The notes under the pieces were generated by a model. The model did not search any database, was not told where the DNA came from, and was given only the letters and a program-made list of their open reading frames with translations. A DNA stretch of 64,000 nucleotides from Tetradesmus obliquus (lineage: Eukaryota > Chlorophyta > Chlorophyceae > Sphaeropleales > Scenedesmaceae): positions 1,972,501-2,036,500 of the forward strand of contig CP126205.1 of NCBI GenBank assembly GCA_030272155.1, written 5' to 3'. Made by a program: the position numbers and the translations under genes. How positions within the stretch are numbered: the stretch's first letter is position 1; each line of letters opens with the position of its first letter. Shown in pieces: positions 7,083-50,120 of this stretch.

Positions 7083-9560
7083 ATGATGATAATGATGATG
7101 CTGGTGCTTCTCCCCGTTTCCTAGCAGGCCTGCTGCCTCACTGCCTGCTAGCCAGGAAACAAGTGCTTCTAGCAGTGCTGCTGCGTGGCAGCTGCCCTTG
7201 TAGTCTGGTCGGTGGTGCAGCAAAGCAGCTTGCTGCAGCTGCTGCTGAATCTGGCACAGTCCCAGCAGCAGCCACTGCACTGCAGCTGCTGGCTGCTGCT
7301 GCTGCTGCTGCTGCCCAGCATAGTTAGCAGCTGTGGCCGCTGGTGCTTGTTGCAGAGTAGCAAGGGCAGCTGCTGTCTGTGCAGTGCAGGAGAGTGGGCA
7401 ATCACATGCAGCATGAAATGCTGCCCAAGGCTTGTCCCAGCTGGAGCTGCTGCCACTGTGATTGCGACTACGACTGTCAGCTGCTGATGTAGCACCTGCA
7501 GTTTTGGTGGTGGCTTGGACTCCCAGAAGGCTGTCTGTCAGCTGCAGGATCAGCCGCAGTTGGTTGTGGCTGTACCTGCCCTGCTGCTGCTGCTGCCACA
7601 AGAGCTGCAAAGGCTGCAGGCACAGCAGCAGCAGCGCATCCTGCTGCTGCAGCAGCCCTGCAACAAGCAGCTGCTGCAGCAGCGCCACTGCTGACAGCTG
7701 CTGTGCCTCTGTCATCTCAAGCGCCTGCCGCTGCTGCTGCTGATTCAGCTCTGTCGTACGACCAGCAATGGTGGCATGAGCCAATTCAGATGCAGCCAAG
7801 AACTGGTAGCTGGCTGGCACCGGCAGCAGCAGCCGCAGCAGCTGGTCCAGGAGCAGGGGCACTGCAATGCACTGCTGCTCCGGCACCAAACCGTCCTCTG
7901 CTTGACCAGCTGCTGCTGCTGTGGTGTGCTGTGCAGGGATTTCTGCTGCTGCCAGTGCTGGTGCTGCAGCTGCTGGTGCCACTGATGCTGCCAGCATTGT
8001 CACAGCGGCTGTTGTGCTGCAGGCGCGCTGCATGCCCTTGAGCAGCTGCACCACCAGCGGCTGCTGCGACCTGCAGGCAGAGCGGCAGCAGGCAGCACAC
8101 ACGCGGCAGGTCAGTTGTGATTGCTGCAGGGAAGGTGACTGATATGATGCATGCCCTTGAGCAGCTGCACCACCAGCGGCTGCTGGGACCTGCAGGCAGG
8201 GCAGCAGCAGGCAGCACACGCGCGTATGGCATCACGTAGATTATGCGAATATGCTGCAGGCAGTTTAATATTAGGCCTGCAGACAGGGCAGTACAAGGCA
8301 TCGCGTGCATGTGCAATGATGTGTAAGTCAGCTGCGAAAGTGCAGACATACGTTGCATACACATTGCGCAGGCAAGTGAAAAAGATTGCCATGTCAAAGA
8401 CCACTGCCATGTAACAAAATAACATTGTCGCATCCACTCTGCGGTTACCTGTGGTGCACTGCATCCAGCAGCAGTTGCCTGACAGTCAGCTCCGGCCTCA
8501 GCACCTCATACAACAGCAGCATCTCATCAGCCAGCAATAACACCAAATTGACAAAGTAACACTGTTACAACTATGCAGCGCTCACCTGTGGTGTACAGCA
8601 TCCAGCAGCAGCCTCCTGACAGTCAGCTCTGGCCACAGCGCTTCATACAGCAGCAGCACCCGCAACAGCTCAGCCAGCGACAGCATCATGTAACAAAGTA
8701 ACACAATTAAAGCAGTATGTGCCCACCTGTGGTGCACTGCATCCAGCAGCAGCCTCCTGACAGTAAGCTCCAGCCACAGCCCCTCATACAGCAGCAGCAC
8801 CCGCGACAGCTCAGCCAGCAACAGCATCACGTAACAAAGCGACACTTTTCAAAGCAATATGTGCCCACCTGTGGTGTACTGCATCCAGCAGCAGCCTCCG
8901 GACAGTCAGCTCCGGCCACAGCCCCTCATACAGCAGCAGCACCCGCGACAGCTCAGCCAGCAGCAGCGCCTCTTGCCGCTGCTGCGGCAGCACCACTTTG
9001 GTTCTGGTCACAGCTGCACTGCCTGGTGCTGGGTCAGCCGCCGCTGCTGCTGTTATAACACTAGTAAAAGCGTCATCATTGTCACTTTGCTGTACCAGTT
9101 TGTTGCTAGCAGCGACAAGGCCTCTGGCAGCAGCAGCAGCCAGGTGCGGCTGCAGCTCACTTGAAAGCTGCTGCCGCAGCCAAGACCAGGGGTTGTTGGC
9201 AGCCGCAACCCTCACCCCAAAACCCCGCTGCTGGGGCAGCGATGTGGCAGCAGCACCAGTAAACCCATTGCTGGGGTGTAGTGCTGCCAGCAGTGCCTGC
9301 TGTAGCTCTGGCTGTTCCAGCTGCTGTGTTGCTTCTGCTAGCATCGCCAGCAGCAGCTGCACCAAGCCAGGACAGCGCGGCTGCCAGACTGTGCTGCACC
9401 CCTGCTGCTGCTGCTGCTGCTGCTGAAGGGCCACTGCATGCAGCAGCATCTGCACCAGGCAGCAGCACAGCCGCAGATGGCCGTAGGTGCTGGTGCCTGC
9501 TGCTGCTGCCACCTGCGCCAACAGATCTACTGCACTGCCACCACTACCTGTGCTGCTGCT

Positions 9561-13255: not shown

Positions 13256-16200
13256 ATGGGGGACAGCAGTTACGTGGTGAAAAGGATCGACTTCTTTGGA
13301 AGGTGAGGCATGCAGCAGAAGAGCGCGCAGGCATCAAGCAGTTGCCTGTGCTCACTGGCTGCAGGCCTCAGCAGCAGCTGCATGCAGCTATCATTGCACA
13401 GATGCATGCAGCATACGCGCAACACTCAACATTGCAACAGCAGCTTGCCTTTTCATCAACTGTACAGCCACACACCTCCACCCACCCTCCTGCAAGCTCC
13501 GCATGCCCTCCGCATGCATCGCTCTGCAAGACGTGTGACACGTGCACCCAAATGCTCTCAACTTCAAACCTCGCAGGCAGGTCAAGATATGCATGCAGAA
13601 CAAGAATGGGCCATGCCCGCTGCTGGCAATCGCCAACGTACTGTCTCTGCGCAACGAGTTGAAGCTTCCTGCAGGCGTGCGGGACATCACCCAGGCAAGC
13701 AGCTGTGCCAGCACAGCAGCAGGCGCAGCACCTGTGCTGCAGAAGTCAGAGGCTGCAGCACCAGCCGCAAAGACACATTATATATTACATTGTTTGTTGC
13801 AGCACTTTTTGCGCGCACAGACAGAATTTGTCATCAGCACTCCATGCAAGCCGTTATCGGTAAAAGAAAGCATTGGGAATGTGTTGTGCAGCATGCAGTG
13901 CCAAGACTGTGTTGGCAGTGTCATTGCTGCACCCTGCTGCTCCCTGCCACCATCCCTGACCTGCATCATTCCAGCTGTCACCTAACCTTTTGAACCTTGT
14001 TACATTCCGTCATGTAACAGTCGGACCTCATCACGTCCATCGTGGACCTGCTGCTGGAGCGCAGCAAGGCCTTCGAGGGCAGTGCGCCACATGCAGCCGA
14101 CTACGCGCGCAATGTCAACGACGTTTTCCCAGTGCTGCAGAAACTGACCACAGGTGCGTGGCAGCGTGTTTGTTAGTATTGTGTATGCTTGTATGGTGCA
14201 AGTGTTGCACACCACACGCAGCAGACTATGTGCGCAATGTCAGCGATGTTTTCCCAGTGCTGCAGCAGCTCGCAACATGTGCGGTGCAGCGCAGTTGCTT
14301 CTGTCGAGCATCTTCCGCATGATGCGTATCGTGTGGGCCACACGCAGACCATGCGCGCAACGTCAGCGACGCCCTCCCGGTGCTTTGAATGCTCACAACA
14401 GCTGCGGCGCAGCACAGTTGCTACTGTTGCGCATCAAAGACTTGCTTACGACAACTAGCATTTCACTGCCGCAGGCATTGACGTGAATGTGAAGTTCCAC
14501 AATGCGCACGCGTTTGAGCCGACACCAGAGGTAGCTGTCTTCGACCTGCTGGGCATCCCGCTGCTGCACGGCTGGCTGGTGGACCCGCAGGACGCTCAAA
14601 CAGCAGCAGTCTTCGGCACCAGGTGAGAGCGTTCACTCACATTTGACTTATATTTGATTGCCGTGTGAGGGGTGGTGGGCATGAGGTGTGACCTGCTGGG
14701 CATCCCGGTGCTCCACGGCTGGCTAGTGGACCCGCAGGACGCTCAAACAGCAGCTTTTTTGGCACCAGGTGAGAAGGTTGACCGGTGTTTGACTGATGTT
14801 TGACTGAGCATTATGTTTTGACCGGCCGCACATCCCGCTGCTGCACGGCTGGCTAGTGGACTCGCAGGACACTCCAAATGCACCGGTCTTTTGGCACCAG
14901 GTTGGTTCAGAGGTGTGTAATGTGTAGTAAAGTGCCCGCATGGACCCCTAAACTCCGCACCACGGCCGCGTCAGGTCCCTGATGGAGGTGCTGCTACTGC
15001 TGCTCTTCAATTCACTCAAACATACTTCAATGCTCTAACTTCACCTGCCCACTAATTGTTCAGGTCTACAATGAGCTGATGGAGTTGCTGCTGCGTGGCC
15101 TAGACAAATCAGAAGTGGAAGCGCTGTCAGCAGTCCTGCTGCAACTTGTTAAAAGTCACTATGACTCTTCAACTAAGCAATGAAACATTGATTACACATG
15201 TGCAGGTCCTACAACGAGTTGATGGAGGTGCTGCTGCTGGGCCTGGACGAGTCAGAAGTGGATGCGCTGTCAGCAGGCCCGCTGCAACTTGTCACAAGTC
15301 ACTATGACTCTTCAACTAAGCAATGAAACATTGATTACACGTGTGCAGGCCCTACAACGAGTTGATTGAGGTGCTGCTGCTGGGCCTAGACACATCAGAA
15401 GTGGAGGCGCTGTCAGCAGGCCGCTGCAATATGTCCACGTTCACCATCACAGTTAGTAATTACTCTGACCATGAAATATTGATGAGAAATCTGCAGGTCC
15501 TACAACGAGTTGATGGAGGTGCTGCTGCTGGGCCTAGACGAGGCAGAAGTGGAGGCGCTGTCAGCAGGCCCGCTGCGCAACCTGAGCATCAGCCACGGCT
15601 CATTCTCACAGGCACACCAGCACGCCCTGGAGCAGCAGCAGCAGCAGCAGCAGCATGCCTTGGAGCAGCAGCAGCAAGCTCTTGAGCAGCAGCAGCAGCA
15701 GCACATGCCGCCTGTTGCTGAAGGGGCCGTGGAGTCGCTGATGGACCTGCAGGAGCAGCAGCAGCAGCAGCAAGTTGCAGCAGCAGGGCTCGATCAAGCC
15801 CTGCCGCAGCTGCCACAAATCTCCACAAGCAGCAGCAGCACTAGCAATGGCGTGCATGCCTCATCATCATCATCAGCAGCAGCAGCAGCTGATGTGGCAG
15901 CTGATGCTGCAGCTGGCAGTGCTGAGGATGTCGTTATCGAGGAGCTTGTGGAGGAGATGCTGCTGCATGTCTGCTGCGATGTGGCACCCAGCAGAATAGA
16001 GCTGGGTGACAGCCCCACCCGCAGCACTAGCATGACACGGAAGCTTGCTTTTGAAGGAGCAGGGCCCTCCCGGCTAGGGGTTGGAAGCGGCAACAACAGC
16101 GGCAGCAGCGAGCCGGCTGGGACAGAAACACGTGCAGGGGCTGTTGGGGCGAGTGCGGCAGCTGGCGACCAAAAGCAGCAGCAGCAGCTGGTGGATGCGC

Positions 16201-18402
16201 ATGTGGTGCGGGGTTTCATGGAGTCGCACTGCAGCCAGCTCACGCCGTATGGCCTGGCTACGCTGGCAAGCAGTTTAAAGGAGCACCAGCTGGCAGTCTT
16301 TTTCAGGTGAGCGGCTGTAAATCTTCATATCGACTATGCTTCATGCAGTGTCCGAGAGCACCGTACAGGCTAGCTACCGCGACAAGCGGTTTGAAGGAGC
16401 TCCAGCTGGCGGTCTTCTTTAGGTGAGCGGTGTTGGGGTTGTGGCGGGGCTTCATGGAGGCGCACTGCAGCCAGCTCACACCGTACCGGCTGGCCACCTT
16501 GGCGAGCAGCCTGAAGGAGCATCAGCTGGCTGTGTTTTTCAGGTGAGCAACATCAGCATTGGTTTGTATTGAGGGTGTCTCAGTTGTTCGAATTGCCTTA
16601 TGCCTTACGGGCTAGCCAGAATAGAGGGGCACCTGCTGGCAGTGTTGTTCGAGTTATACTGGTGTTTTTCCAGAGACGACTGGCAATCATGGCACATCCT
16701 CTTACAGCTGGTCCTGCTGCTGCACAAAACCTTGGACGTGTAATGTTCAATCATTGGTCTAGCATGCAGCAACATCCGAGTCGCACTGTTTGGTGTTGAG
16801 GGCGCCATGCCTCCTGCTGCTGCGCTATAAAGCCTCAAACAAGACGAAGTTCAGGTTCAGGTCAGTTTAGGTCGATGCCTGCAGGAACAACCGCTTCTAC
16901 GCGCTGTTCGCCGTTCATGGTGCTGTGTTCATGCTGTTTACGGATATAAATCTTCAACCAACTGGACTACTTTTTCATGCCTGCAGGAACAACCACTTCA
17001 ACACGCTGTTTGCCTTTGAGGCCGCCGTGTTCCTGCTGGTGACTGATGCGGGCTACGAGCGCGAGCCGGACATTGTGTGGGAGCGCCTGGACAGCGTCAA
17101 CGGCGACACCACCTTCTGCACAGGTGCGGCGGAAATACGGGCATATTTATGTGGGTCTGCTTATGGACGAGGGTGAGAGGGCTTGTGAACCTGTTTGAGA
17201 GAGAGTGAGAGCGCCTGGACAGCGTCAATGGTGACACCACCTTCTGCACAGGTGAGAGACAGTGTGAGAGACAGTGTGAGAGAGGAAGTGAGTTGGTGAG
17301 ATGGGGAGTAACGAAGTGTGTGAGAGAGACATCGTGTGGGAGCGCCTGGACAGCGTCAATGGTGACACCACCTTCTGCACGGGTAAGGCACTCACCCATC
17401 GATATCCAAATCTTTACGGGTGGCGTCACTCATCAGCGCGCTTCCAGTGTATCTGAGCAGCAGCAGCAGCAGCAGCAGCACCTCATTCAACATGCAGGCT
17501 CGCTCTGCTGATGTCACCCTTTCCTGACTTCGTGCTGCTGATGCTGCTTCGCTGCTGCAGGTGCTTTCAGCCGCGTTGTGCCGCACAGGAATCCCGACAC
17601 CCTCAGTTACAGCCAGGTTGCAGCAGCAATCTATGCTCACAATGCTGATGCCAACTATCCATAACATGTTGTGCTTCTGCTGCTCTGCTGCTCTGCCGCT
17701 GCAGGTGCATTCAGCCCCTTTGTGCCGCACAGGGATCCCGACACCCTCAGCTATAGCCAGGTGGCAGCAGCAGGCGCAGCAGGCGAGGTACCAGCAGCCA
17801 TGACTGACCTTGATGCAGCGATAGCAGCAAGCCTGGCAGCAGAATCTGGAGGAGGAAGAGGCTACGAGCAGGCCGTGCAGCACCAGCAGCAACAGCATCA
17901 GGAGTTGCTGGGACATGCAGCAGCAGCAGCGGGACATGACAGCCATGAGGATGCAGACTTTGCTTTGGCGCTGCAGCTGCAGCTGCAAGAGGAAGAGGAG
18001 GCTGCGAGGATACAGGCGCAGCGCCAGCAGCAGCAACAGCAGCAGCAGCAACAAGGCAGCGGCAGTGCCCAGCAGCAGCAGCAAGCGGCGGCTGCGCCTG
18101 GCCTAGGGCTGCAGCAGCAGGCCGACTCGCTAGCAGCTAGTGTCAGACAGATGGGGCGTCGGATAGCTAGTGGAGTTGACAGAGCCGCATCAAACCTGCA
18201 GCAGCAGGCAGCGCAGTTTTCAGCACAGCAGGGGTACCAGCAACCGTCGATGGCAGCAGCGGGCGGTGCGCCGCAGCACCAGCAGCATATGCAGCAGCGG
18301 CGGCAGCAGCAGCAGCCCCGGCGGGGTTCAGCGTCCTGTGGAACACACGGCACTGGCAGGCGGCGAGCGCAGCAGCAGGAGGAGAAGTGCAGCATCATGT
18401 GA
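13256..18402 (+). CDS. MINDY-family (FAM63-like) deubiquitinase, about 696 aa
   Basis: This is a cysteine protease of the MINDY family, which trims Lys48-linked ubiquitin chains. Exons: 13256-13302, 13577-13694, 14021-14153, 14475-14622, 15497-16306, 16987-17123, 17705-18402; all phases match. The catalytic motif QNKNGPCPLLAIANVL places Gln23 and Cys29, and FFRNNHF supplies the expected His (about 422). Family landmarks FDLLGIPLLHGWLVDPQ and HVVRGFMESHCSQLTPYGL are present. A Gln/Ala/Ser-rich insertion of roughly 200 residues (exon 5) splits the catalytic domain. The tail has a UIM-like helix near 499-510 (DLDAAIAASLAAES), a second acidic helix (DADFALALQLQLQEEEEAA), and ends in CSIM, a CaaX prenylation box suggesting membrane anchoring. 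Intron 2 has a GC donor (CAG|GCAAGC). Introns 3-6 are packed with copies of neighbouring exon edges. Confidence 0.92.
14088..14440 (+). repeat. Three tandem copies of MINDY exon 3 end
   Basis: The end of exon 3 (start of copy near 14088) is repeated in the following intron near 14213 and 14339, a period of about 126 bp. The copies share the block coding AADYARNVNDVFPVLQ with increasing substitutions. Confidence 0.85.
14543..14930 (+). repeat. Three tandem copies of MINDY exon 4 end with donor
   Basis: The exon 4 end (DLLGIPLLHGWLVDPQDAQ up to GGCACCAG|GT) recurs twice in intron 4, with the shared word CATCCCG at 14554, 14701 and 14831. Each copy retains a GGCACCAGGT junction. Confidence 0.88.
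15040..15600 (+). repeat. Four tandem copies of MINDY exon 5 start with acceptor
   Basis: First exon bases after an AG acceptor occur at 15064, 15206, 15349 and 15497, spaced 142, 143 and 148 bp. Every copy has CAG followed by sequence coding (S)YNEL(M/I)E(V/L)LLLGLD. Only the last copy continues into the long open exon; the others run into a shared intron-like segment containing GACTCTTCAACTAAGCAATG. Confidence 0.9.
16205..16670 (+). repeat. Tandem copies of MINDY exon 5 end with donor
   Basis: The exon 5 end with its GTGAGC donor occurs at donor positions 16307, 16423 and 16542 (116 and 119 bp apart), plus a decayed fourth copy at about 16583-16665 without a donor. The copies share LASSLKEHQLAVFF(R/-). 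Confidence 0.88.
16870..17030 (+). repeat. Two tandem copies of MINDY exon 6 start with acceptor
   Basis: GATGCCTGCAG|GAACAACC and a near-identical CATGCCTGCAG|GAACAACC mark exon-start copies at 16885 and 16987, 102 bp apart. The second is used in the model because it leads into the open exon. Confidence 0.87.
17075..17400 (+). repeat. Three tandem copies of MINDY exon 6 end with donor
   Basis: The block coding ERLDSVNGDTTFCT followed by a GT donor appears with donors at 17124 (GTGCGG), 17252 (GTGAGA) and 17383 (GTAAGG), spaced 128 and 131 bp. The coding letters are almost unchanged between copies. Confidence 0.9.
17545..17790 (+). repeat. Two tandem copies of MINDY exon 7 start with acceptor
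   Basis: Exon-start copies begin at 17561 and 17705, 144 bp apart, both after GCTGCAG. They share the block for FSP-VPHRDPDTLSYSQVAAA. The first copy has a substituted and slightly shortened reading and is not used in the model. Confidence 0.88.
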
Positions 18403-25705: not shown

Positions 25706-28700
25706 TCACTCCTGCACACCAGTGGTGATGCAGCTGGGTCCAGCAGCAGCAGCAGCAGCCCCAGAGCCTCCAGCACCACCAAGCATGTAACCCTCCAAGC
25801 CAGCAGCATATGCAGCAGCACCTCCCTGCTCTCCCATCTCAGGCAGCCCAGGCATTGCCCCATACCCTCCAGCAGCAGCAGCAGCAGCAGCATCGCCGCC
25901 AGCAGCAGCAGCAGCAGCCGCTAGCTTGCTCATCGCCAGCTGCATCTGCACTGCAGAGCCCTGAGCAGTGGTGAAGCTGGCCTGCATGCCTGCAGGCGAG
26001 TTATTGCTGATGTGGCTGTACTGTGCAGACAGCAGCGCCATTGGCAGTGTCCCCTCAGCATGCTCGCCAGACAGAGGGCTGCCTGCTGCTGCTGTTGTAC
26101 CGCCTGTACCGCCCGCAGCACCACCCATACCAGGCACTACATCTGCAGCTGACCTGTCACCTCCCATGCTGCCACACAGCTCACCCATACCCTCACCCTG
26201 CTGCTGCTGCTGCAGTGCCAGCAGCTGGCTGGCAGCAGCAGCAGCATTAGGTGTAGCTGGCACACCCAGTCCTGCAGCAGCACCGCCTGCCATATGGCTA
26301 GCCATAGCAGCAGCAGCAGCAGCAGTGGGGCTGCCGAGCACCAGGTTTGCTGGTGCTGCCAGGCCGTGCGTGGGGCTGCCGCGGTTGGCGGCGTGCTGTG
26401 CATGCTGTGCGTGGGAAGGGGTGTGGGCGGCAGCTTGGCCTGCCAGCTCCGCTGCTGCTGCTGCTGCTGTGTTGATGGAGAGGCCGGAGTGGGCTGGCGG
26501 GGCATTGAGGTTGGCCAGGGCCCGCACCAGGCTATTCACATCCAGAGTGCCTGTAGAAAGGAGGGAGTGTAACATTAGCAGCCAGCAGTAGCAGATGAGT
26601 GTTGTTGCGACAACTCGCAAGCACCTCACCCTAAATGACCTGCAAGTCCACCTCTAAGCCCATTGGCAAAGACATAATCCTTTTATAGATGCACAAGCAC
26701 CACCAGACAGCCATACCCTGCAAAACAATTAGAAAGGCTGTGGGCACAAGTGAGCTGACCCACAAAATGCTGCTTGCATGCAAGTTGCACCTCCCCCTCC
26801 TGATCGCTCGCAGATTCGTCACATCGAAGCTGCAGGCGACCAAGAAGCAGGAGCAACCCGCGTACGGCATATCACCAGCATAACCCAACACACATCCAAG
26901 CGGGTTATGTAAGCAGCAGCGTGCCACAACATGAACTGCGGACGCATGACTAGGACTCAGAACCTACAGTGTGCAGCAATTTAAGGGCCAGCAACCTTTC
27001 ACATCCTGCAAGTTCAACATCTATATCGACCTGCAAATCCCAGATCACCCCTGAGAAAGGCCGCTGGCAAAACAGCATGCTTTGAAGACGCACCACCACC
27101 ACCGAAAGATGCACAACCACCGCCAAACACCCACATCCTGCAAATGCCAAAGTTACGGGGGTCGCGCATGCCGATCATCAAACTGCTGCTTGCATGCAGC
27201 TTGCAAATCCCTCCTGGTCGCCCGCAGGATCGTCTGTAAAACATACGGCCAGGGGCGACCAAGAAGCAGTTGCAACTGGGGTGCAGCGCATCGCATGCAC
27301 GGCTTGTAGGGCACGCACCAAAAGCAGTGTGATGTGAGCAGCAGCCTGCCGCAACAGGAACAGATGCAACGGTGTAACAGCTGCACTGCATCAGCACAGG
27401 AACCCACACGTGACGTGTCGTAACACATTAAAGGATGAAACCATCATGTCATGTGTGAGCTCCTGCGATGAACTCCTAGCCTACTTAATAGTAGATGCAT
27501 CAGCTCAGTGCCATCAGCCACCCACCTTGCCCAACCAGCAGCAGTCCACCCGCCAGACTAAGTTGCTGCCTTTCAAAGAAATACACCGCAAGATATCTCC
27601 AGCACACATCTTGACGCTGATCAACAGCAAAAACCAGAGCGTTGCCAACTGCAGGCTCATTCGACACATGAACAGACTCAACACAACATGGTGCACGCTG
27701 CGGACTCCAGGCCGATGATGACGTTGCTTTGCGGTGTAGCCGGAGGCAGCAAGCTCCTCGCCACTCTGCCACATGACGATGATGCGCTTTATCGCCTCGT
27801 GCAGAACAACCTGCCTAACTGCCTGGTGCACATGGCACCCCTTTCACCCATGACAGAATTAAGATGTACCCAGCATATCTTCTAAGTTGACAGGCAAACA
27901 CAGTCGATATCATATAACAAAAGTGGCAGGTCAACTTACCTGATTCGAGGCCGATGATGACGTCGTTGGCTGTGTAGCCAGAGGCAGCAGGCGCCACGCC
28001 GCTCTGCCACATGACGGCAATGATGCGCTTCATTGCCTCGCGCAGGCGCACTTCGCGGCTGAACATCTTGTGCCAGGTGATGACCTGTATAATACATAAG
28101 CAGAAGCAGCAGCAGGGGCAGCGGCAGCGTCAGCATCTTGTGCCGTGTGACACGCTTCATTGCCACGAGCAGCCGCGCCTCGCGGCTGAACATTTTGTGC
28201 CAGGTGATGATCTGCAGAGCAGCAGCAGCAGCAGCAGCAGCAATGTCAGTGGCTTCTAAGTCGCGCGCAGGCCCATGTCCCATCAGAACACCGTGTCCAA
28301 GGTGTGTTTCGTAAAAAAACACCGTACAACGCAACAAATGCTTCAACACAGCAGCAAAGCCAACAGCACAACGCTTACCCAACTACAGATGCAGCAGCTG
28401 CAGCCTGTACTCCTGCTGGTTGCACCTGATATCAAAAGTGGCAGGCTTGGTCAAGGTGAAAAGCGCAGTGAACAACGCGTGTCCTGCTTTGTGGGGGAAA
28501 AGCCCGAAACGAGTAGCTCACTGCACTCTTCCCCACACCAGCAAGCACGCTATGTGCACTGCGCAGCAAGACGCTTACAGCCACTCGACATACAAAACGC
28601 ACTACGCACCTGCAGCCTGTACTCCTCGTTCTTGCGCATGAGCTCCCTGAGGGTTTTCTGCAGCTCCACCATGAAGGCCATCTTCTTGGCACGGCACTTA

Positions 28701-29099
28701 AGCCGCACGTGTTCAAGAATAAAAAAAAAAGAAAAAACTCACTCAAAAGGCCAATTCCTTGACGTTGGAAGGCAATCACCTGCTTGGCGCGGCACTTGCG
28801 CGCCGCCACAAAACTCAAAGGAAGGCAACCCAAAATCCATACTTCAAATGACCAACCCTACTAAGAAGGCCAAAACTTGGGCATCACAAAGCAAACAAAA
28901 ACCACAATTCACCTGCAGCCTGTACTCCTCGTTCTTGCGCATCAGCTCGCGCAGCGTCTTCTGCAGCTCCACCATGAACGCCATCTTCTTGGCGCGACAC
29001 TTGCGCGCAGCCACGCGGTTCTTCTCGCGCCGGATGCGGGCGCGCGTGTTCTCATCCATGTCAGGTGTGATGGACAGCGCAGCTACAAATAGCAGCAGC

Positions 29100-29132
<33 letters not shown>

Positions 29133-31830
29133 CAGGCATCAAGACACTGCCAGACAGTGTGTGGCGCGCGTGTCCTCGTCCACGTCGGGCGTGATGGACA
29201 GCACCGCTGCAGATACGAGAGGGGTGAAAACTCAACACAGCAGCAGAAGGATCGTCAGGCTTGGAAGAGCTTGAAACACAGCCGGTGAGCGCAGCACTGC
29301 TGTAAAAAGACGTCACAATCACAGCAAAAGCGCAGCCGACAGTGAACAGAAAGCAGCAGAGTTCGCCACCGTGCTGCTCACAGCAGAGACCAGCACCTAC
29401 GCGTGGCTCCTGGCCACCAAAGTCGCTGCCACCGCCAAAGTCCCACGTCACGGCTCGGCCCCATAGCAGACTACCCATTCACAACCCAAAGATTAATAAG
29501 ATCTGTTTGTGATAGGTAGGCCACACCTGCGCTGCCTCCTGGCCATCAAAGTCGCTGCCATCGCAAAAGCCCTGGGCCAAAGCACATCCCCGTGACACAA
29601 ACACACCAACACCAAACTACCACAAAACACCAAATTACCACAAAACACCAAAATATCACAAAACTAACTAATACCACAAAACTTCATATATAATAATAAA
29701 AATTATCAAGAGCCCACCTGCGCGTGCCTCCTGTCCGTCAAAGTCGCTGTCGTTGCCAAAGTCCTGCGCCACCGCCTGGCCCCGGCTGCCCCTGGAGCGC
29801 TTGCTGGAGCCGCCCGCAGCCGCCGCCTCCTCCATCTCCAGCTGGTGCAGCTGCTCCCCCATTCCTGCAAGCGCAGCAGCGCCCTCACCCAGCAAACTCG
29901 CAAGCCCACTGTCGCAATCCATCATCATCAATGCGGCTCCATCCTGCTCGCCCTTGATGAAGTCGCCCATGCGGGCGCCGCGGCTGCGGCGCTTGCCGCC
30001 CGGCGTGCCGGCGTCGCCGTTTCCTGCAAAGGCCATGTTTCCTGCAAAGTTTCCTGCAAGCGGCGAGTGCGGGTCGCCGGCGCAGTCGGCCGCCAGGGAG
30101 GCGAGGTCGATGCCGGAGATGCCAAAGGGGACTGAGGCGCTGGCTGCGAAGGATGACATGTGGGCGGTGCTGTTGCCGGTGATGGGCATCATGTCGCCGC
30201 CCACGGGCATGGCTGCAGGGGGTGAAAAGAGAGGGTAGCAGCGCAGCAGTGGAGGCAGCAGCAGTGCAAAGCAGCAGCACAGTCAGCAGCAGCGCAAGAA
30301 AAGGCTGTTGTGCGAGGTCCTGCAAGCAGCACACCAATCTGCCATGTGAGAACTCTGCTGAGCAACCACACAGTAGAAAGCTTGCTGCAAGCACCTGATG
30401 TTGCACACGATATGCATAGTCATTGCCCTGCGCATGCAGTGTTTTCCCATGCAGTCATCTGCCATGTACTGCCCGCCATGTGTACTGCCTGCCACGTGCC
30501 GCACCTGCTGCCATGGACATGGCCATGTGCTGCATGCCGCTTGCAGAGCCAGGCACAAAGCCATCTCCGCCTGCTGCTGCAGCCTGACTCATCATGTACT
30601 GATGTGCTGCTGCCAGCTGGCTGGAGTTGAGGTTCAGGTCATAACCACCACCGCCACCTCCTGCTGCTGCAGCGGAGCTTGCAGGACAGTCCTCCATGCC
30701 GCTGCTGCTGTGGTGCTGCTGGTTGGGGTCGCTGCTGATGTTGGTGTAGGAGGCGCTGCCGTGGTGGTGGTGCAGGTGCTGCTGGGGTGGCTGTGCATGG
30801 GGGGTGTCAGGGGAGTGGGAGGTGTGGTGGGAGGCCTGGGCGTCCTGGAAATCATACTGCTGCAGCCGAGGCACGGCTGCTGCCTGCAAGCAGATCAATC
30901 GCGCGAAATGGGGGTAGTAAGTGCATGCATAAGGCAGCTTGTGGTAAACTGAAAGGATCTGGCTCAACAAGAGATGCTGTGGTGTGCAAGCTGGGCTTGC
31001 AGAAACAGCAGGTTGAGCGTTTGACCAGCAGGTGTGACAACTGTTGACAGCAGATGCTGCCGTACACCCAGCCAAGATGCAGCAGCATCCATAGCAAGCG
31101 CGTTGCATATGCATGCAGGGACAACATGTGGTGAATGCGGCGCCAAAAGCGCTTGCTGTGCTGCATGCTGCTGCTGTTGCATGCCCAGGCATGCGGTACA
31201 GCCGCTGTGACAAGCATAGGACGCACTGCCATTACGCGCAAGGCACTGGCCCACAAATGTGCTTGCATGTCAGCACAAGATACTGCAGACTGATTACAGC
31301 TGTTTTCACGATAGGCAGCTGCCGGTGGCTTGACAGTTGCTGCCCCGGCTTTCAAGCTGAACTGATGTGCTGCCTGGGCAGCATCGCAAACACGGAAGGC
31401 TGCATGAATGCCTAAGCATGCAGCACACCTTGCACGGCTTCCAACCATTCTACAAGTGCAAACCGGTCTTCCAAGACGTTGCAAGCTGCAGATAGCAGAC
31501 TATGTGATGCTCCTGCCTGCCCCAAGGTCAACACCTGGCTGCAGGGCAAGTGCAGCAGAGCATGTCGGCAACTCCAACCGTCCGCTTGGGCTATCGCCGC
31601 TGTTTACGCACCTTCTGCTGTCCATTTCTGAGCGACATGAGCCGCTGAAGAGCCAGATCATCGTCAGGCGCCTGCAGCTCGTCCATCACGGGTACTCCAC
31701 CTGCTCCCGCTTCTGCGCCATTGTCCCTGAAGATGTCAAGGAAGCGCGAGTCGAAGCGCTCAAGGGAGGGCAAGCTCTGCAAATCGAGCGAGCCACATTG
31801 GGGATTCACGAGTCCTGCAGCTGATGCCAT
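25706..31830 (-). CDS. bZIP transcription factor, about 750 aa
   Basis: A DNA-binding regulator of the basic leucine zipper class. Exons: 31830-31612, 30883-30505, 30212-29718, 29082-28913, 28084-27940, 26550-25706; phases agree and the frame closes at a stop. The basic region EKNRVAARKCRAKKM (about 384-398) fits N-x7-R-x9-L, with Asn386, Arg394 and Leu404, followed by a short zipper (Leu404, Leu411, Tyr418). After it, exon 5 encodes a predicted helix (SREVRLREAMKRIIAVMWQ) and a motif SGYTANDVIIGLESG. The N-terminal third is His/Gln/Asn/Gly-rich, with KRRSRGARMGDF as a likely nuclear signal. The C-terminal exon is Ala/Gly-rich and may be an activation or repression domain. Introns 3, 4 and 5 contain diverged copies of exon 3 end, exon 4 start and end, and exon 5 edges. 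Target genes cannot be inferred. Confidence 0.88.
26637..27320. repeat. Diverged direct repeat inside bZIP intron 5
   Basis: Two diverged copies of a ~270-bp segment lie about 390-420 bp apart. Paired anchors are GACCTGCAA at 26637 and 27028, TGCTGCTTGCATGCA at 26768 and near 27184, and GACCAAGAAGCAG at 26838 and 27257. Neither copy matches an exon that I recognise. Confidence 0.75.
27695..27850 (-). repeat. Decayed copy of bZIP exon 5
   Basis: Minus-strand reading shows EAIKRIIVMWQSGEELAASGYTA, a diverged version of the exon 5 product (EAMKRIIAVMWQSGVAPAASGYTA), about 235 bp downstream of the real exon end. It is frame-disturbed after TA. Confidence 0.8.
28125..28220 (-). repeat. Partial copies of bZIP exon 5 start
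   Basis: The block coding ITWHKMFSREARL with its CAG acceptor occurs at about 28165-28216, upstream of the real exon 5 start at 28084, and a shorter fragment lies at about 28130-28150. Confidence 0.75.
28385..28805 (-). repeat. Partial copies of bZIP zipper exon end
   Basis: A copy of the exon 4 end (KKMAFMVELQKTLRELMRK through RLQ and a GTGCGT donor) spans about 28610-28700. Shorter fragments of the basic region lie at about 28777-28805 and of the RLQ end at about 28396-28412. Confidence 0.82.
29083..29610 (-). repeat. Copies of bZIP exon 3 end and exon 4 start within intron 3
   Basis: Fragments coding GSDFDGQEA, matching the exon 3 end, recur at about 29525-29590 and 29395-29455. An exon 4 start copy (acceptor CTGCAG, then LSITPDVDEDTRA) begins at 29206, 124 bp upstream of the real one at 29082. 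A CTG-sense run lies between them at about 29100-29131. Confidence 0.82.
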
Positions 31831-36958: not shown

Positions 36959-39900
36959 GCAGATGACCAGCAAGTGCAGCTGCAGCAGCAGAAGCAGCAG
37001 CAGCTGCTGCTCCTGCTGTGCAACTCGCTGACAGCCATGATGCAGCAACGGCTGCGGCACAGCACGCCGCAAAGCTTTGTGCCTGCTGTTGCTGCCCTTG
37101 GGCGGTTGGCTACCCTAAGGCAGCACTCTGGCAGCACAACCAGCAGCAGCAGCAGCAGCAGCAGTGTCGCTAGGCAGTCGCAGCAGCAGCTGGAGCAGCT
37201 GGCAGCTAGGGCAAGTGAGCTGGCACCGGCACTCAGTGTCAGCCAGCTGACTGTTGTGTTGTGGGGCCTGGCAAAAGCAGGCATCAAGCCAAGCAGCAGC
37301 AAAAGCAGCACCTGGCTTGCACCACTGCTGGACGCATTCTTGACCCAGTGTCATGTGGCACACGATTTGCAGCAGAAGCTAAAGCTACAGCAGCAAGAAC
37401 AACAGCAGCAGCAGCAGCAGCAGGAGCAGGTGGCTGATCCCCGCCTGCAGCGTCCAGCGCTTCCTGGCAAGCAGCAGCAGCAGCGCTGGCCGGAGCTGCA
37501 GCAGGTGCAGCAGCAGCTGCAGCAGGAGCCAAACCTGCAGCAGCAGCAGCAGCAGCAGCAGCAGGTGCTGCAGCAGCACAGCCTTGCCACTGACCTGTCA
37601 CTGGTGCTGTATGCTCTGGCTGTGATGGGGCAGCAGCCTGAGGCAGCTTGGCTGGGCCAGTGGCAGGCGGCAGTGCTGCAGCAGCTGCCGCAGGCCAATG
37701 CGCAGGACCTGTCTCAGGTGTGCACTGCTTGCTGATGCTGTTTGAGCTCATTCAGCATGGCGCGGCAGGCATTATATGTTTGTTGGGGTGACTGCTTTTT
37801 GCAGCTGGCCATGCAAGTTTTGTTGGGTGTGTGGTGCATCCGGACCAAATGAATTGCTGAGCAAAATGCACTCAGTTGCTTGCAGCTGCAGCTGCGCTCA
37901 CATTCCTCCAAACCCTACCTGGAATGGACTGCTTCGCTCGAATGCTTACATGCAAAATGCAACCTATCTGTCAACAACACTTTGGTGTTTGTGTCAGCTA
38001 ACCCACGCACAGCCTGAGACAGGCCTTACATCATGCCGCACTGCAGTGCACTGCAGCGCCAGGTACATTTATCCCATGGGTTTGACTCGAACGCGACACG
38101 CTGAGCGCACATGAACCTGCGTGTCATTTCGATTGGGTTATTTCTTCCTGCAGGTGCTGTGGGCGCTAGCCAGCCTGGGCGTACGGCCGCAGGAGGCCTG
38201 GCTGCAGCAGCTGCTGGCTGCCACGCAGCCGCTGCTGGACAGGTAGGGCCGGGTTGTAGTCGCCCTAAACTTGCCATGCAGTATCGCTGAGATGCAGCCG
38301 GCAATCGCAACCGCAAGGACTTTGCAGGTTGTGCCAGCTGTGGTTGAGGCGACGAAGGCGGTGCTTGATGGTACGTTGGCCCTGGCAGTTGAATTGATGT
38401 GCAGCAACGACCAGCAGCTGCTTTTCAAGAGCAGCTCAAACAATAGATCCCTGACCTGCTCAACACGTGTACATGTCGCTCTATGTCTTCAATCTCTCTG
38501 CCTCTGGGTGTTTGCTGTTTATCTGTTGTCCTGCAGTGCCGGCACCCAGTCCCTGAGCGGCATCGCGTGGGCTGTGGCGCGGCTCATCCCGCCGCAGCCG
38601 CCGCAGGTTTGGCTGGAGGCTTTCCTGCAAGCGCTGCAGGAGGATGAGGCTCTGGTGAGGAAGTGGCACCCGCTGCTGCTGCTGGCCTCTTGCTTGATTG
38701 TTTGCTGTCATTTCGTGGGTGGTTCTGATCCTTTGCTTTTGCATGCAACAAGCGACAGCCCTGCACTGGCTTGAGGCGTTCCTGCAAGCCCTGCAGTAGG
38801 GCACGGGTCTGGTGAGCATGCACGTCCTCCTGCTGTTGCTGCTGCCGCCTGTGCTGGCCCGTGTCTTACATGCCAGCTGCAATTGCGCAATTGCATGGGC
38901 TGTCTGGAGTTTCTGCTGTTGCGTGCAATGAAATAGCCTGCAACACTCGCCTTACTGCCCTGGCCAAGCTCAAAGTTCCCCTGGACAGGGCCTGGCACCT
39001 TTGTTTCAAACTGCTCCTGACATTCCCTTGTGTTCTGTTTCTATCTTGCACCTGCAGGCTTCCTCCCCGCAGGCCTTCAGCACCTGCCTGGCTGCCCTAG
39101 CAAAGCTCAAGGCGCCAGTTGACCGGGCCTGGCTCTCCGCTGCCCTCGAGACCAGCACGCAGCAGCTGCCAGCCTACACTGCCTGGCAGCTGACCAACAC
39201 TGCCTGGGCATGTGCCAGTTTGAATGCCAAGCCATCTGCCGCATGGATGCGGGCATTCCTGAAATCCTTTGCACGGCAGGCAGATGCAGGAAGCCTCAAT
39301 GTGCAGCAGCTGGCCAGTGTGCTGTGGTCGCTAGCTGTGTTAGGCCGCAGCAGCGAGCCGATGCCCATGTCACAGCAGCTGCAAGTGCTGGTGGGCTTGC
39401 AGGCGCTGGCGGCTGCAGGACATGGCAGCGGTCTGAAGCAGCTGGGCCCTGCAGGGAGATCTGCGCTGGCATGGTCACTCGCAAGCTTGCGGGTGACACC
39501 CAGCAAGCAGTGGCTGGGTCAATACCTGTCAGCTGCGTTTGACGGCGGGCTCGCGTCGGATCAGCTGCGCTGCGCAAACGTGCTGTTCTGCATCGCGTCG
39601 GTCGACTTTGAGTACCTGGTGGAGTGGCTCGGGGATTTCCTGCAAGGCGCTGACTCAGCAGCTGGTGGGCCGAACGGTGGGCCGAGCGGTGGGCTGGACC
39701 TGTCGCTGCAGAAGTATGCGGCGCTGGCCGGCGTGCTGGGCGCTTTGGGGGAGATGGACAGTCGGCAGCTGCGCGCGGCATGGCTGGATGCGTCAGGGAC
39801 TGAGTGGTGAGTGTTGGCTCACGCTGGTGTTGTGGGATTAGCTGCTGCAGGCGTGATGCATGTCGGCGCCCTAGAGCAGCAGAGAAGCTAACGCTTGAGA

Positions 39901-40431
39901 GTGCTTTTTGAGCAATGGACAGCTGTCAGCTGCGCGGGGCTTGGCTGGATGCCTCAGGCACAGAGTGGTTGGTGGCTCTGGTAATCAGGTGCTGCAGATG
40001 TGTTTCACTTGCACAGTATCTATGCTTTGGCCGGCTGCCAGCTGTACAGAAAAGCAGCAACTCAGCAGGTGCAGCAGACCAGCAACTGTAACTTACCGGA
40101 CAAACAACTGCAGCTTACCAGTGTTGCAGCAAGTGCTCTCTGCATAAGTGAGCAATTTGCATTGCAGGACAGGCTGTGCCCCTGATCCAACGCCATGCTG
40201 CGTGCCTCGGCTGCTGATGCTGCATATGTCCATTCTGATGTGCAGGTCGCCTGAGGCAGCAGCCGGTGATGGAGCCGTGGGTTTGTCACTGCAGCTGCCT
40301 CCTGGCCTGTCTGCCTGGGTGGACAGCATGCTGACAGCACCAGCGGCAGCTGCAGGCAAGCCGGCTGCATCAAGTGCAACAGCAGCCACAGGCAAGGCAA
40401 GTGCATCAGCCGGCGCTGGCAGCGGTGATAG

Positions 40432-43906: not shown

Positions 43907-45054
43907 ACGCCAACTGCATGGTGGAAGCGCAACATTGCAAGCCTGGCAGCGTGCCGTGCACATAGCAGAGCACGACAAGCGGTATTGTTGCGTGGCTAGC
44001 ACAGAGCATGCCTGGTTAGTCCATGGTCCACCTTTGCTAATGGTGATGTGTGCAGAACTTGCAAGTGCAGTGAAGTTTAGTAGACTGCGCATCAGTCTTC
44101 GTGTGCTGCTTGTCATGCAGACCTCGCTGGTATGCCTACTAATACTTATGTGTATTGACTGCTTCCCTCATACAGAGCTAGAGCAGATGGTGCAGCAAGT
44201 GCACCTCATGGTATGGCCACAGGCAGGCAAAGAGGCAGCAGCAGCAGCTGCAGCAGCCACTGTAGCGCAAGTAGCAGCTGCAGCAGCACCCACTCCCGCA
44301 GACCTGCAGCAGCTGCCGGCGCCTAGCTTCAGCAGCAACTGCAGCAGCGGCACTGCTGCTAACGCAGATGGTAGCAGCGGCAGCAGCGAGCTCATGGCTG
44401 CGGCGGCTGGCAGCAGCAGCAGCGGCGGCAACGAGTCGTTGGCACGGCAGCAGAGCTTGCAGTCTCTGCTGGTCAATCTAGAAGCATCAGAGCAGCTGCT
44501 GCAGCTGCTGAAGGATGTTGACCAGAGGGTGCAGATGCTGATGACCATCGAGTGAGTGCGCCTGCAGTAGTAGTTAACTGAAGGCTGGATCTCACATGAC
44601 ACTGCGCGTGCTGCTGCTGCTGCTGCTGCTGTAGTTTGGATGCAGCGCTGCGTGGGCAGGAGTTGTGCAGAGGACACGTGTGTCAGGCAGCATGTGATGT
44701 TTAGTTTTCGTGCGCTGTGAGTTGCCGGTGGTGATGACAACTCATAGCAACTGGCAAATCCCTCCTGCCTCATTGCAACACCACCCCGCAGTGTTTTCAA
44801 CAGTTCTAGTGCATGTGAAACTGGTTTCTGCTGCTTCTTTGTTCTGCAGGTGCAACCTCACCTTCAGCTGGATCAACACAATGGACATGCGGCGGATGGC
44901 AATAGCTGTTGTGGAGAGCTACCCTTTTATGGTCATGCCCATCCCCCTGTGTGAGCTGGCAGCGCAGCAGCACGTCCTCATGCAGGAGGAGGCAGCTGCT
45001 GCAACTGCAGCAAAGAAAGGCGCTGCTGCCAAGCGACAGCAGTCTGCAGACTAG
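41583..45054 (+). CDS. Leucine-zipper protein, bZIP-like but without a visible basic region (about 500 aa)
   Basis: Exons: 41583-41786, 42115-42626, 43217-43321, 43770-43870, 44176-44551, 44850-45054; phases agree and the frame closes at TAG. Residues 29-62 form heptads with Leu33, Leu47, Leu54 and Leu61 (Arg at 40), within LVRELQQRVEQRTAEL and KQRQELL, which looks like the zipper half of a bZIP domain. The segment before it (GMRKGFPVYGSRS) lacks the N-x7-R basic signature. Either the true 5' exon is missing from my model, since an AG acceptor is possible just before GSRLV, or the protein binds no DNA itself. The remainder is helical (FTPDHVLQAHAMGLQELVAL; ICHIVCPKTLW-like; FSWINTMDMRRMAIAVVESY) and not assigned to a family. 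Exon 2, 3 and 6 edges are duplicated downstream. Confidence 0.68.
42565..42960 (+). repeat. Three copies of zipper-gene exon 2 end
   Basis: Sequence coding (T/A)LHEY(A/V) at the exon 2 end with donor at 42627 recurs near 42836 (donor GTGAGT kept) and near 42945 (donor changed to GTTCAA). Confidence 0.83.
43280..43420 (+). repeat. Duplicate of zipper-gene exon 3 end
   Basis: GTGACACTCAACATGGAGAC at the exon end has a counterpart about 90 bp downstream (GTCAACATGGAGACGACGGA), followed by GCCA|GTGAGC at 43412. Confidence 0.84.
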
Positions 45055-45530
45055 GTGCACAGCAGCACCAGCAGTTGTCTGTCTGCTGACCAGGCACGCA
45101 GCAGCAGCAGCAAGAGCGGGCATGCCTGCAGCAGCAGTCGCAGCAAACGGTGTGCGGAGGCTTTACTGGCTGCAGTGCACCATTTTTGGAGAGCTATCCG
45201 TTCATGGTCATGCCTATTCCGCTGTGTGAGCAAGCAGCGCAGCAGCAGCATGCCCTCATGCAGGAGGGGGCAGCTGCAGCACGCAGGGGCGCTGCTGCAA
45301 AGCGGCAGCAGTCCTCTGACCAGGCGCGCAGCAATTATGTTGACCGAGCGCGCAGCAGCCGCAAGAGGGGCCCTACATGCAGCAGTCTTCCGACTAGGCG
45401 AAGAGCAGCGCCAGCAGTTGTGCGGGTGACTGCGCACACAGAAGCTGCCCGGGCGGGGATGCCTGCAGCAGCAGTGGCAGCAGCGACCGCTGTGCAGAGG
45501 CCTCTGTTGGCTGCATGCATGGCATCAGCC
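44910..45530 (+). repeat. Tandem copies of zipper-gene last exon and 3' UTR start
   Basis: The last exon from ESYPFMVMPIPLCE onward recurs about 275 bp downstream (GGAGAGCTA at 44913 and 45188), and the following Ala/Gln-rich tail and early 3' UTR recur again near 45340-45520. Copies 2 and 3 lie after the stop codon at 45052-45054. Confidence 0.85.
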
Positions 45531-49808: not shown

Positions 49809-49912
49809 CCGCCGCACAACAAGCTTGTAGGCACCTACATACAACCAGCGCCAGCCCCGACTGTCACCTGCCTGGCGGCTGTGGTATCATCAGCCCCGCA
49901 GCGCAGCCGCTG

Positions 49913-50120
49913 CCTGCTGCAGCAGCCCTCTCAGGTAGCACCTGCACGGGGCTGCAGCAGTCGCACGACAGCTGCTGCCTGCTGCAGCAGGCCTCTCAGG
50001 CACCACCTGCGCGGGGCTGCAGCAGCGGCACGGCAGCTGCTGCCTGCTGCAGCAGGCCTCACAGGCAACCACTATCCAAGGCTGCAGCAGTGGCACGGCA
50101 GCTGGCGCCTGCTGCAGCAA
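49913..50120. repeat. 65-bp tandem repeat in INCENP 3' UTR
   Basis: CCTGCTGCAGCA starts at 49913, 49978, 50043 and 50108, an exact 65-bp period, giving three full units and a partial one directly after the INCENP stop. The period is not a multiple of three, so the array is unlikely to be coding. Confidence 0.9.

Follow-up and report, generated by a model that had tools for sequence, protein, structure and literature searches.

Tandem copies of exon edges in the introns of the green alga Tetradesmus obliquus

Internal gene duplication spanning an exon–intron boundary was described by Gao and Lynch 2009 (as cited in the excerpted texts of PMC3443670 and PMC4974935), and in the potato RdRp gene a single boundary-spanning duplication produced a new intron (excerpt of PMC4974935). 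The exon-edge arrays of Tetradesmus obliquus resemble internal gene duplication in that the tandem duplicate crosses one boundary and brings splice signals with it; unlike the potato event as excerpted, they comprise up to five extra copies per boundary, affect several edges of one gene, recur at many loci of the sampled genome, and lengthen an existing intron. The model of tandem duplication of AGGT-containing exon segments (Rogers; Hellsten 2011), described in the same excerpts of PMC3443670 and PMC4974935, is likewise similar, since splice sites are supplied by tandem duplication and the protein is unchanged, but it places a new intron within an exon, whereas the unit found here includes part of an existing intron. 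This AGGT route to a new intron, raised in the initial annotation of the locus, does not describe the MINDY gene, where the copies extend introns already present at those junctions. Introner elements, as outlined in the excerpt of PMC9860276, have similarly changed intron content en masse in one genome; unlike these elements, which spread by inserting their own copies in many genes, the arrays here each copy their own exon edge. That excerpt makes no mention of Tetradesmus, Scenedesmus, Sphaeropleales, tandem or Chlorophyta, and titles and abstract openings yielded no account of such exon-edge arrays in a green alga. A genome search with 401 bp of the MINDY exon 5 array (one array; common words skipped, best candidates scored) gave no matches beyond itself and its own neighbouring copies. 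Exon sequence is also repeated within a gene in the case of tandem, mutually exclusive exons. There the whole exon is repeated with acceptor and donor, whereas the MINDY copies carry one edge each, and most copies elsewhere likewise consist of a single edge with its splice site. In a small number of apparent whole-exon duplications, a short exon seems to be duplicated with both splice sites (L019:7908-8112, 126 bp; L021:6582-6878, 197 bp); these are possible alternative exons.

The window, by which we mean the whole stretch of 64,000 bp that was analysed (G000:C15:1972501-2036500), is part of a 104.7-Mb genome of 17 contigs and has a GC content of 56.8%; both figures are consistent with excerpted published values for T. 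obliquus, 57% GC (PMC5966456) and 108.7 Mb (PMC5255914). CAG/CTG trinucleotide runs are very dense across the window, in exons and introns alike. The MINDY gene, at 13256-18402 on the plus strand, has seven exons (13256-13302, 13577-13694, 14021-14153, 14475-14622, 15497-16306, 16987-17123, and 17705-18402) in a single open frame of 696 residues, with four matches to Pfam MINDY_DUB above the curated cut-off, in exons 2, 4, 5, and 6. The profile search gave no MINDY_DUB gene elsewhere in the genome among the matches listed. The donor of exon 2 is GC, not GT (CCCAG/GCAAGC at 13694-13695; slashes mark junctions here and below).

Comparison of the MINDY gene with itself, on the plus strand and with simple repeats masked, yielded 13 repeat pairs (E from 4e-6 to 8e-116), all direct and in tandem, and each involving an exon edge of introns 3-6, with nearest-neighbour offsets of 102, 116, 125, 128, 142, 146, and 147 bp. 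Seven of the eight edges at these introns, namely the ends of exons 3-6 and the starts of exons 5-7, are copied, with one to three extra copies each; the same comparison gave no copy of the exon 4 start and none in introns 1 and 2. The initial annotation had thus described the seven copied edges correctly, and a separate origin of the duplications at each edge is supported, while its wording that essentially every later junction is duplicated overlooked the start of exon 4. Its statement that the copies fill most of four introns is borne out by the coverage of tandem pairs, 1721 of 2456 bases (282/321, 720/874, 323/680, and 396/581 in introns 3, 4, 5, and 6, respectively), against 0/274 and 0/326 in introns 1 and 2. 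In each array the outermost copy is taken as the used edge because it is the sole copy running on into the remaining exon.

The end of exon 3 (used edge at 14087-14153, donor after 14153) is followed by copy 2 at 14212-14278 (AACAT/GTGCGG) and copy 3 at 14333-14401, in which the donor is lost (CAG/CTGCGG), and the end of exon 4 (14543-14622) by copies at 14690-14768 (CCAG/GTGAGA) and 14817-14900 (CCAG/GTTGGT). The start of exon 5 (15497-15576) is preceded by three copies at 15064-15142, 15206-15285, and 15349-15427, with acceptors TTGTTCAG/, ATGTGCAG/, and GTGTGCAG/, respectively. The end of exon 5 (16208-16306) is followed by a decayed copy 2 at 16361-16422 (TTTAG/GTGAGC) and by copy 3 at 16444-16542, which over 29 codons differs from the used edge by 11 synonymous and two nonsynonymous changes; a further decayed copy, outside the scored set, was recognised by eye near 16597-16650. 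A single copy at 16885-16945 (acceptor GCCTGCAG/) precedes the start of exon 6 (16987-17047), two copies at 17205-17251 (CACAG/GTGAGA) and 17328-17382 (CACGG/GTAAGG) follow its end (17069-17123), and one at 17561-17628 (acceptor TGCTGCAG/) precedes the start of exon 7 (17705-17772). Within these units, the exon–intron junction seemed to sit near the middle. The splice dinucleotide is retained in 12 of the 13 copies, in line with the early claim that nearly all keep AG or GT: AG at all five acceptor copies (15064, 15206, 15349, 16885, and 17561), and GT at the donor copies ending at 14278, 14768, 14900 (weak context), 16422, 16542, 17251, and 17382, with CT at 14401. Among the donors listed previously, 16423, 17252, and 17383 denote the first intron base and 16542 the last exon base.

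The spread of such arrays was assessed in a genome sample of 264 kb, consisting of the window and 20 stretches, 10 kb each, taken from set positions (labelled L with a number). Outside MINDY and the D1 protease described below, gene models come from a home-made gene finder, the second of two (the first over-predicted and was dropped), trained partly on MINDY and used at its first iteration because later iterations overfit. At that iteration it finds MINDY exons 3, 4, and 6 together with the exon 5 end and the exon 7 start, places the exon 5 start wrongly, and lacks exons 1 and 2; for the edge survey the MINDY exons were entered by hand. The sample contains 80 non-overlapping arrays with periods of 60-260 bp (median, 128.5), 52 of them at 100-150 bp. 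Tandem pairs are absent from seven of the 20 10-kb stretches (L007, L008, L009, L013, L023, L024, and L025) and numerous in some others, an uneven spread that counts against the genome-wide process proposed below. Satellite-like long arrays were also seen at L022:1-5670 and L010:1-1130, with periods near 274, 350, and 191 bp, outside predicted genes or excluded from the gene-model tests. In the window, a neighbouring predicted gene on the minus strand (8029-8967) shows the same pattern in arrays (119 and 137 bp) that contain a predicted acceptor and a predicted donor, as does another minus-strand gene at 27703-29783: its pairs lie 127, 124, and 130 bp apart (239 and 303 bp occur too, among other distances), one acceptor is predicted within them, and the remaining edges were read by eye. 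More arrays were noted in predicted genes of the window at 38610-39978, 44909-45519, and 49903-50119; several of these and the two preceding regions hold exon edges.

The association with splice junctions was apparent without any gene model, as a strict donor motif was present in 21 of the 73 non-MINDY arrays (28.8%) and in 8.7% of 7972 control windows (3.3-fold; p=6e-7). With the gene models, 39 of the 80 arrays span a junction, including the seven of MINDY, a training gene, whereas placing them at random gives 20.0 ± 3.5 and reaches 39 in 0 of 1000 trials. Observed and expected numbers of the other classes are 6 and 13.9 (exon-only), 9 and 10.0 (intron-only), 18 and 27.9 (intergenic), and 8 and 8.3 (mixed). 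An edge survey of 19 sources (244 kb; L022 and L023 excluded), in which an intron-side copy was sought within 700 bp, identified copies at 68 of 314 predicted edges at a score of at least 44 and at 58 after a low-complexity filter (36/164 donors and 22/150 acceptors, MINDY's seven included), with no copies when the target was reversed and 0/314 inverted copies. With 58 of 314 edges copied in the pooled sample, MINDY is not the striking case it had been thought to be. Profile matches point the same way: for three Pfam families (the kinase table left out of this count), 13 of 75 neighbouring match pairs overlap by at least 15 profile positions (6/28, 6/39, and 1/8), and copies were found at 8 of 24 edges near the best Pfam matches (null, 0). 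In 44 pairs retained after our own pruning, homology extends into the flank at p≤0.01 in 27 (hand count), and p exceeds 0.05 in 12.

That arrays span junctions twice as often as under random placement, and that 52 of 80 periods lie at 100-150 bp, could be taken to indicate a duplication mechanism aimed at splice junctions, for instance one linked to splicing, R-loops, or exon-positioned nucleosomes. We regard such targeting as highly improbable, since one-sided copy rates are 58/314 (18.5%) for exon edges and 34/158 (21.5%) for intron interiors, so that introns are copied within as often as at their edges, and only exon interiors stand apart at 27/456 (5.9%). The similar edge and intron-interior rates, both above that of exon interiors, fit ordinary tandem duplication tolerated where only an intron is lengthened, and part of the junction-spanning excess is attributable to purging of exonic events and to slower loss of exon homology. 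An enrichment of exon edges over random intragenic duplication, implied by the initial annotation, therefore holds against random placement and not against the intron interior, and a targeting of junctions is not upheld. The junction itself is probably not special; duplications appear to be generic and not aimed at junctions, arising anywhere, with those that damage exons being lost.

We consider it probable that the arrays reflect a genome-wide process of boundary-straddling tandem duplication, tolerated on the intron side, whose copies may stay recombinationally linked to the real edge. In this process, segments of mostly 100-150 bp lying across an exon–intron boundary would duplicate in tandem, repeatedly, independently, and throughout the genome. 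The intron-side duplicate would be harmless if splicing stays with the outermost edge (among donors the first, among acceptors the last), and intron-side events would survive because they are harmless while that edge stays in use, each lengthening the intron by one unit; duplications within exons would mostly be purged. The copies may further remain connected with the real edge by recombination, a guess that would account for the coding sense kept in many of them. The suggestion of intron growth in the initial annotation gains support from predicted intron lengths, the median (MINDY excluded) being 468 bp with an edge copy (n=31) and 282 bp without (n=106), although a longer intron also offers more room for a copy. 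With MINDY excluded, 17% of the intron sequence predicted in the sample falls within tandem pairs. The mean intron of T. obliquus is 462 bp long, and those of three other Sphaeropleales measure 230, 302, and 284 bp (excerpt of PMC5966456), and the arrays may be a cause of this difference. They would represent a concrete route of intron growth, visible at many junctions of one genome, that might explain the long introns of T. obliquus.

Use of the outermost edge is documented at the protein level for one array in one gene. A Peptidase_S41 profile search led to a D1-protease locus (L029), whose last exon, from its start, is identical to the photosystem II D1 protease (PDB entries 1fc6/1fc7) over residues 300-388, and whose preceding exon (L029:895-1052) agrees with 1fc6 at 51 of 52 residues; the exception is a GTG read as M by the tool. 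The start of this preceding exon, at L029:895, is duplicated at L029:804, and of the two versions it is the outer one that the PDB sequence shows; the crystallised protein thus carries the outermost copy. The protein of 1fc6/1fc7 is from Scenedesmus (Tetradesmus) obliquus, and the match points to this species as the source of the genome. Elsewhere the outermost edge is likewise presumed to be used. What selects it is probably not local strength alone, since with a home-made matrix the score of the copy site equals or exceeds that of the real one in 21 of 38 cases, with mean scores for copy and real sites of 4.03 and 5.20 (donors) and 3.74 and 4.26 (acceptors). A preference for the shortest exon would fit the choice of the outer edge. 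The arrays thus offer a natural test of splice-site choice, with similar sites 100-150 bp apart and the outermost seemingly used.

The copies may instead be functional, as with the alternative splice sites or decoys suggested in the initial annotation, their inner sites serving alternative transcripts by regulated or unproductive splicing, which would preserve them. The splice dinucleotide is kept in 43 of 58 survey pairs and in 32 of the 38 in which the alignment extends to the junction, and this retention, the site scores just given, and the small number of nonsynonymous changes in the exon parts would all be expected of functional copies. On the other hand, use of any single inner site in MINDY leads to a premature stop for 11 of the 12 intact copy sites, the exception being acceptor 16885, whose use adds 102 nt in frame; in the pruned set, 16 of 19 indels break the frame, and offsets are divisible by three in 10 of 44 pairs, below one third. 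In the few arrays inspected by hand, no splice route translating the copies in frame was seen. We accordingly give this functional reading little credence and retain tolerated duplication as the better account of why the copies are present.

The manner in which the copies diverge, passed over in the initial annotation, bears on what happens to them after duplication. Identity to the real edge is 90% in the exon parts and 65% in the adjoining 50 bp of intron, as compared with 52% for random pairs. Pairs found by exon similarity give 0.875 for exon and 0.644 for flank (n=43), whereas those found by intron similarity show no contrast (0.787 and 0.798; n=13), indicating that ascertainment adds to the difference. 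Among copies found by exon similarity, copy-to-copy identity is 0.877 in exon parts and 0.661 in flanks (58 pairs, 28 arrays), and in pairs found in the same way gaps per 45 bp number 0.21 and 2.44, respectively. Codon changes over all 58 pairs are 186 synonymous (S) and 133 nonsynonymous (N). For the 44 pruned pairs the counts by site are S 167 and N 103 (synonymous share, 0.619; p=8e-9), or 97:60 with CpG sites removed; changes near a copy's inner end escape these counts because local alignment trims the ends. A copy evolving neutrally next to an exon under full constraint can reach a share of 0.446 at most, or 0.417 without CpG. The MINDY pairs alone give 34:20 (p=0.004).

Counting on minimum spanning trees gave S:N of 189:124 for 37 sample arrays, 55:47 for the seven MINDY arrays (p=0.04), and 77:30 for nine arrays of the domain-anchored genes, to which the D1 protease contributes 3:4. 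Copy-to-copy tree edges exceed the neutral ceiling in the domain-anchored set (22:10, p=0.005) and only there (sample, 17:17; MINDY, 8:10). In a three-way comparison of 23 arrays, in which unresolved branching can lift a neutral copy to 0.446, changes unique to copies are S 70 and N 77, and those unique to the real edge are S 27 and N 15. The clearest array is at a chaperonin exon end (L035, minus strand), where 23 residues are common to the real edge and four copies, all differences among them being synonymous; a fifth copy shares the last 21 residues, with two replacements just before them, beyond the counted part. The proline codons across the real edge and five copies read CCA, CCT, CCG, CCG, CCC, and CCT, and the tree count is 17:0. 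Many of the intronic copies, judged from their sequence, look as if selection still guards the encoded protein, and the synonymous excess together with the few gaps makes duplication followed by neutral decay an incomplete account.

Pairs with these identities (exon, 0.90; flank, 0.65) resemble diverged homologues, and diverged haplotypes or strains set side by side by the assembly would yield synonymous-rich exons and diverged introns; moreover, a related Scenedesmus strain is reported to be likely diploid with haplotypes in separate contigs (excerpt of PMC7955037). Such an assembly artefact is nevertheless highly improbable, as the 264 kb contain no N and the 17 contigs measure 3.1-11.1 Mb, arrays reach four to six copies with near-identical spacers in some, seven arrays lie within 3.7 kb in MINDY, and one chaperonin array carries, by eye, private changes in every copy, which is impossible from two haplotypes. 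A two-haplotype origin was also set aside because array ages differ within one gene and one array appears star-like by eye.

Diverged alleles could have entered the arrays by another way, through unequal exchange between homologous chromosomes of a very diverse population followed by neutral decay. The synonymous-rich differences at many arrays are as this origin predicts, and signs of mosaic arrays would also fit, in that flanks are near-identical yet exon parts differ by 8-16% in 13 of 126 pairs, a biased count because the pairs were picked for similar flanks; in other pairs picked in this way, exon part and flank are equally similar. This origin would, on the other hand, require each locus to have had four to six diverged alleles, together with high within-species synonymous divergence, and we judge it unlikely. 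In a chaperonin acceptor array of four copies (L037:1081-1560), the spacers after copies 1 and 3 look near-identical while the exon parts differ, which suggests a two-unit duplication or exchange. Mosaic arrays such as this one make some form of exchange plausible, without deciding between the accounts.

For the coding-like evolution, recombination with the real edge stands beside diverged-allele origin and unrecognised use of the copies as a candidate cause. Gene conversion from the real edge was considered as the source of the synonymous excess and rejected, as on paper it cannot exceed 0.446, and exact replacement via internal AGGT sites fails in general (few arrays, by eye). More tentatively, the skipped intronic copies might themselves be under purifying selection at the protein level, either as interchangeable exon ends swapped in by recombination in a very large population or as sequence translated via an unrecognised splice route; we hold this somewhat less probable than its contrary. 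If the coding-like evolution holds, selection can act on sequence outside the usual mRNA, and either splicing by a new route or selection exerted through recombination would be needed. A protease exon start present three times at L028:1363-2118 (minus strand) is separated by CTG-rich spacers that give poly-leucine when read in the same frame.
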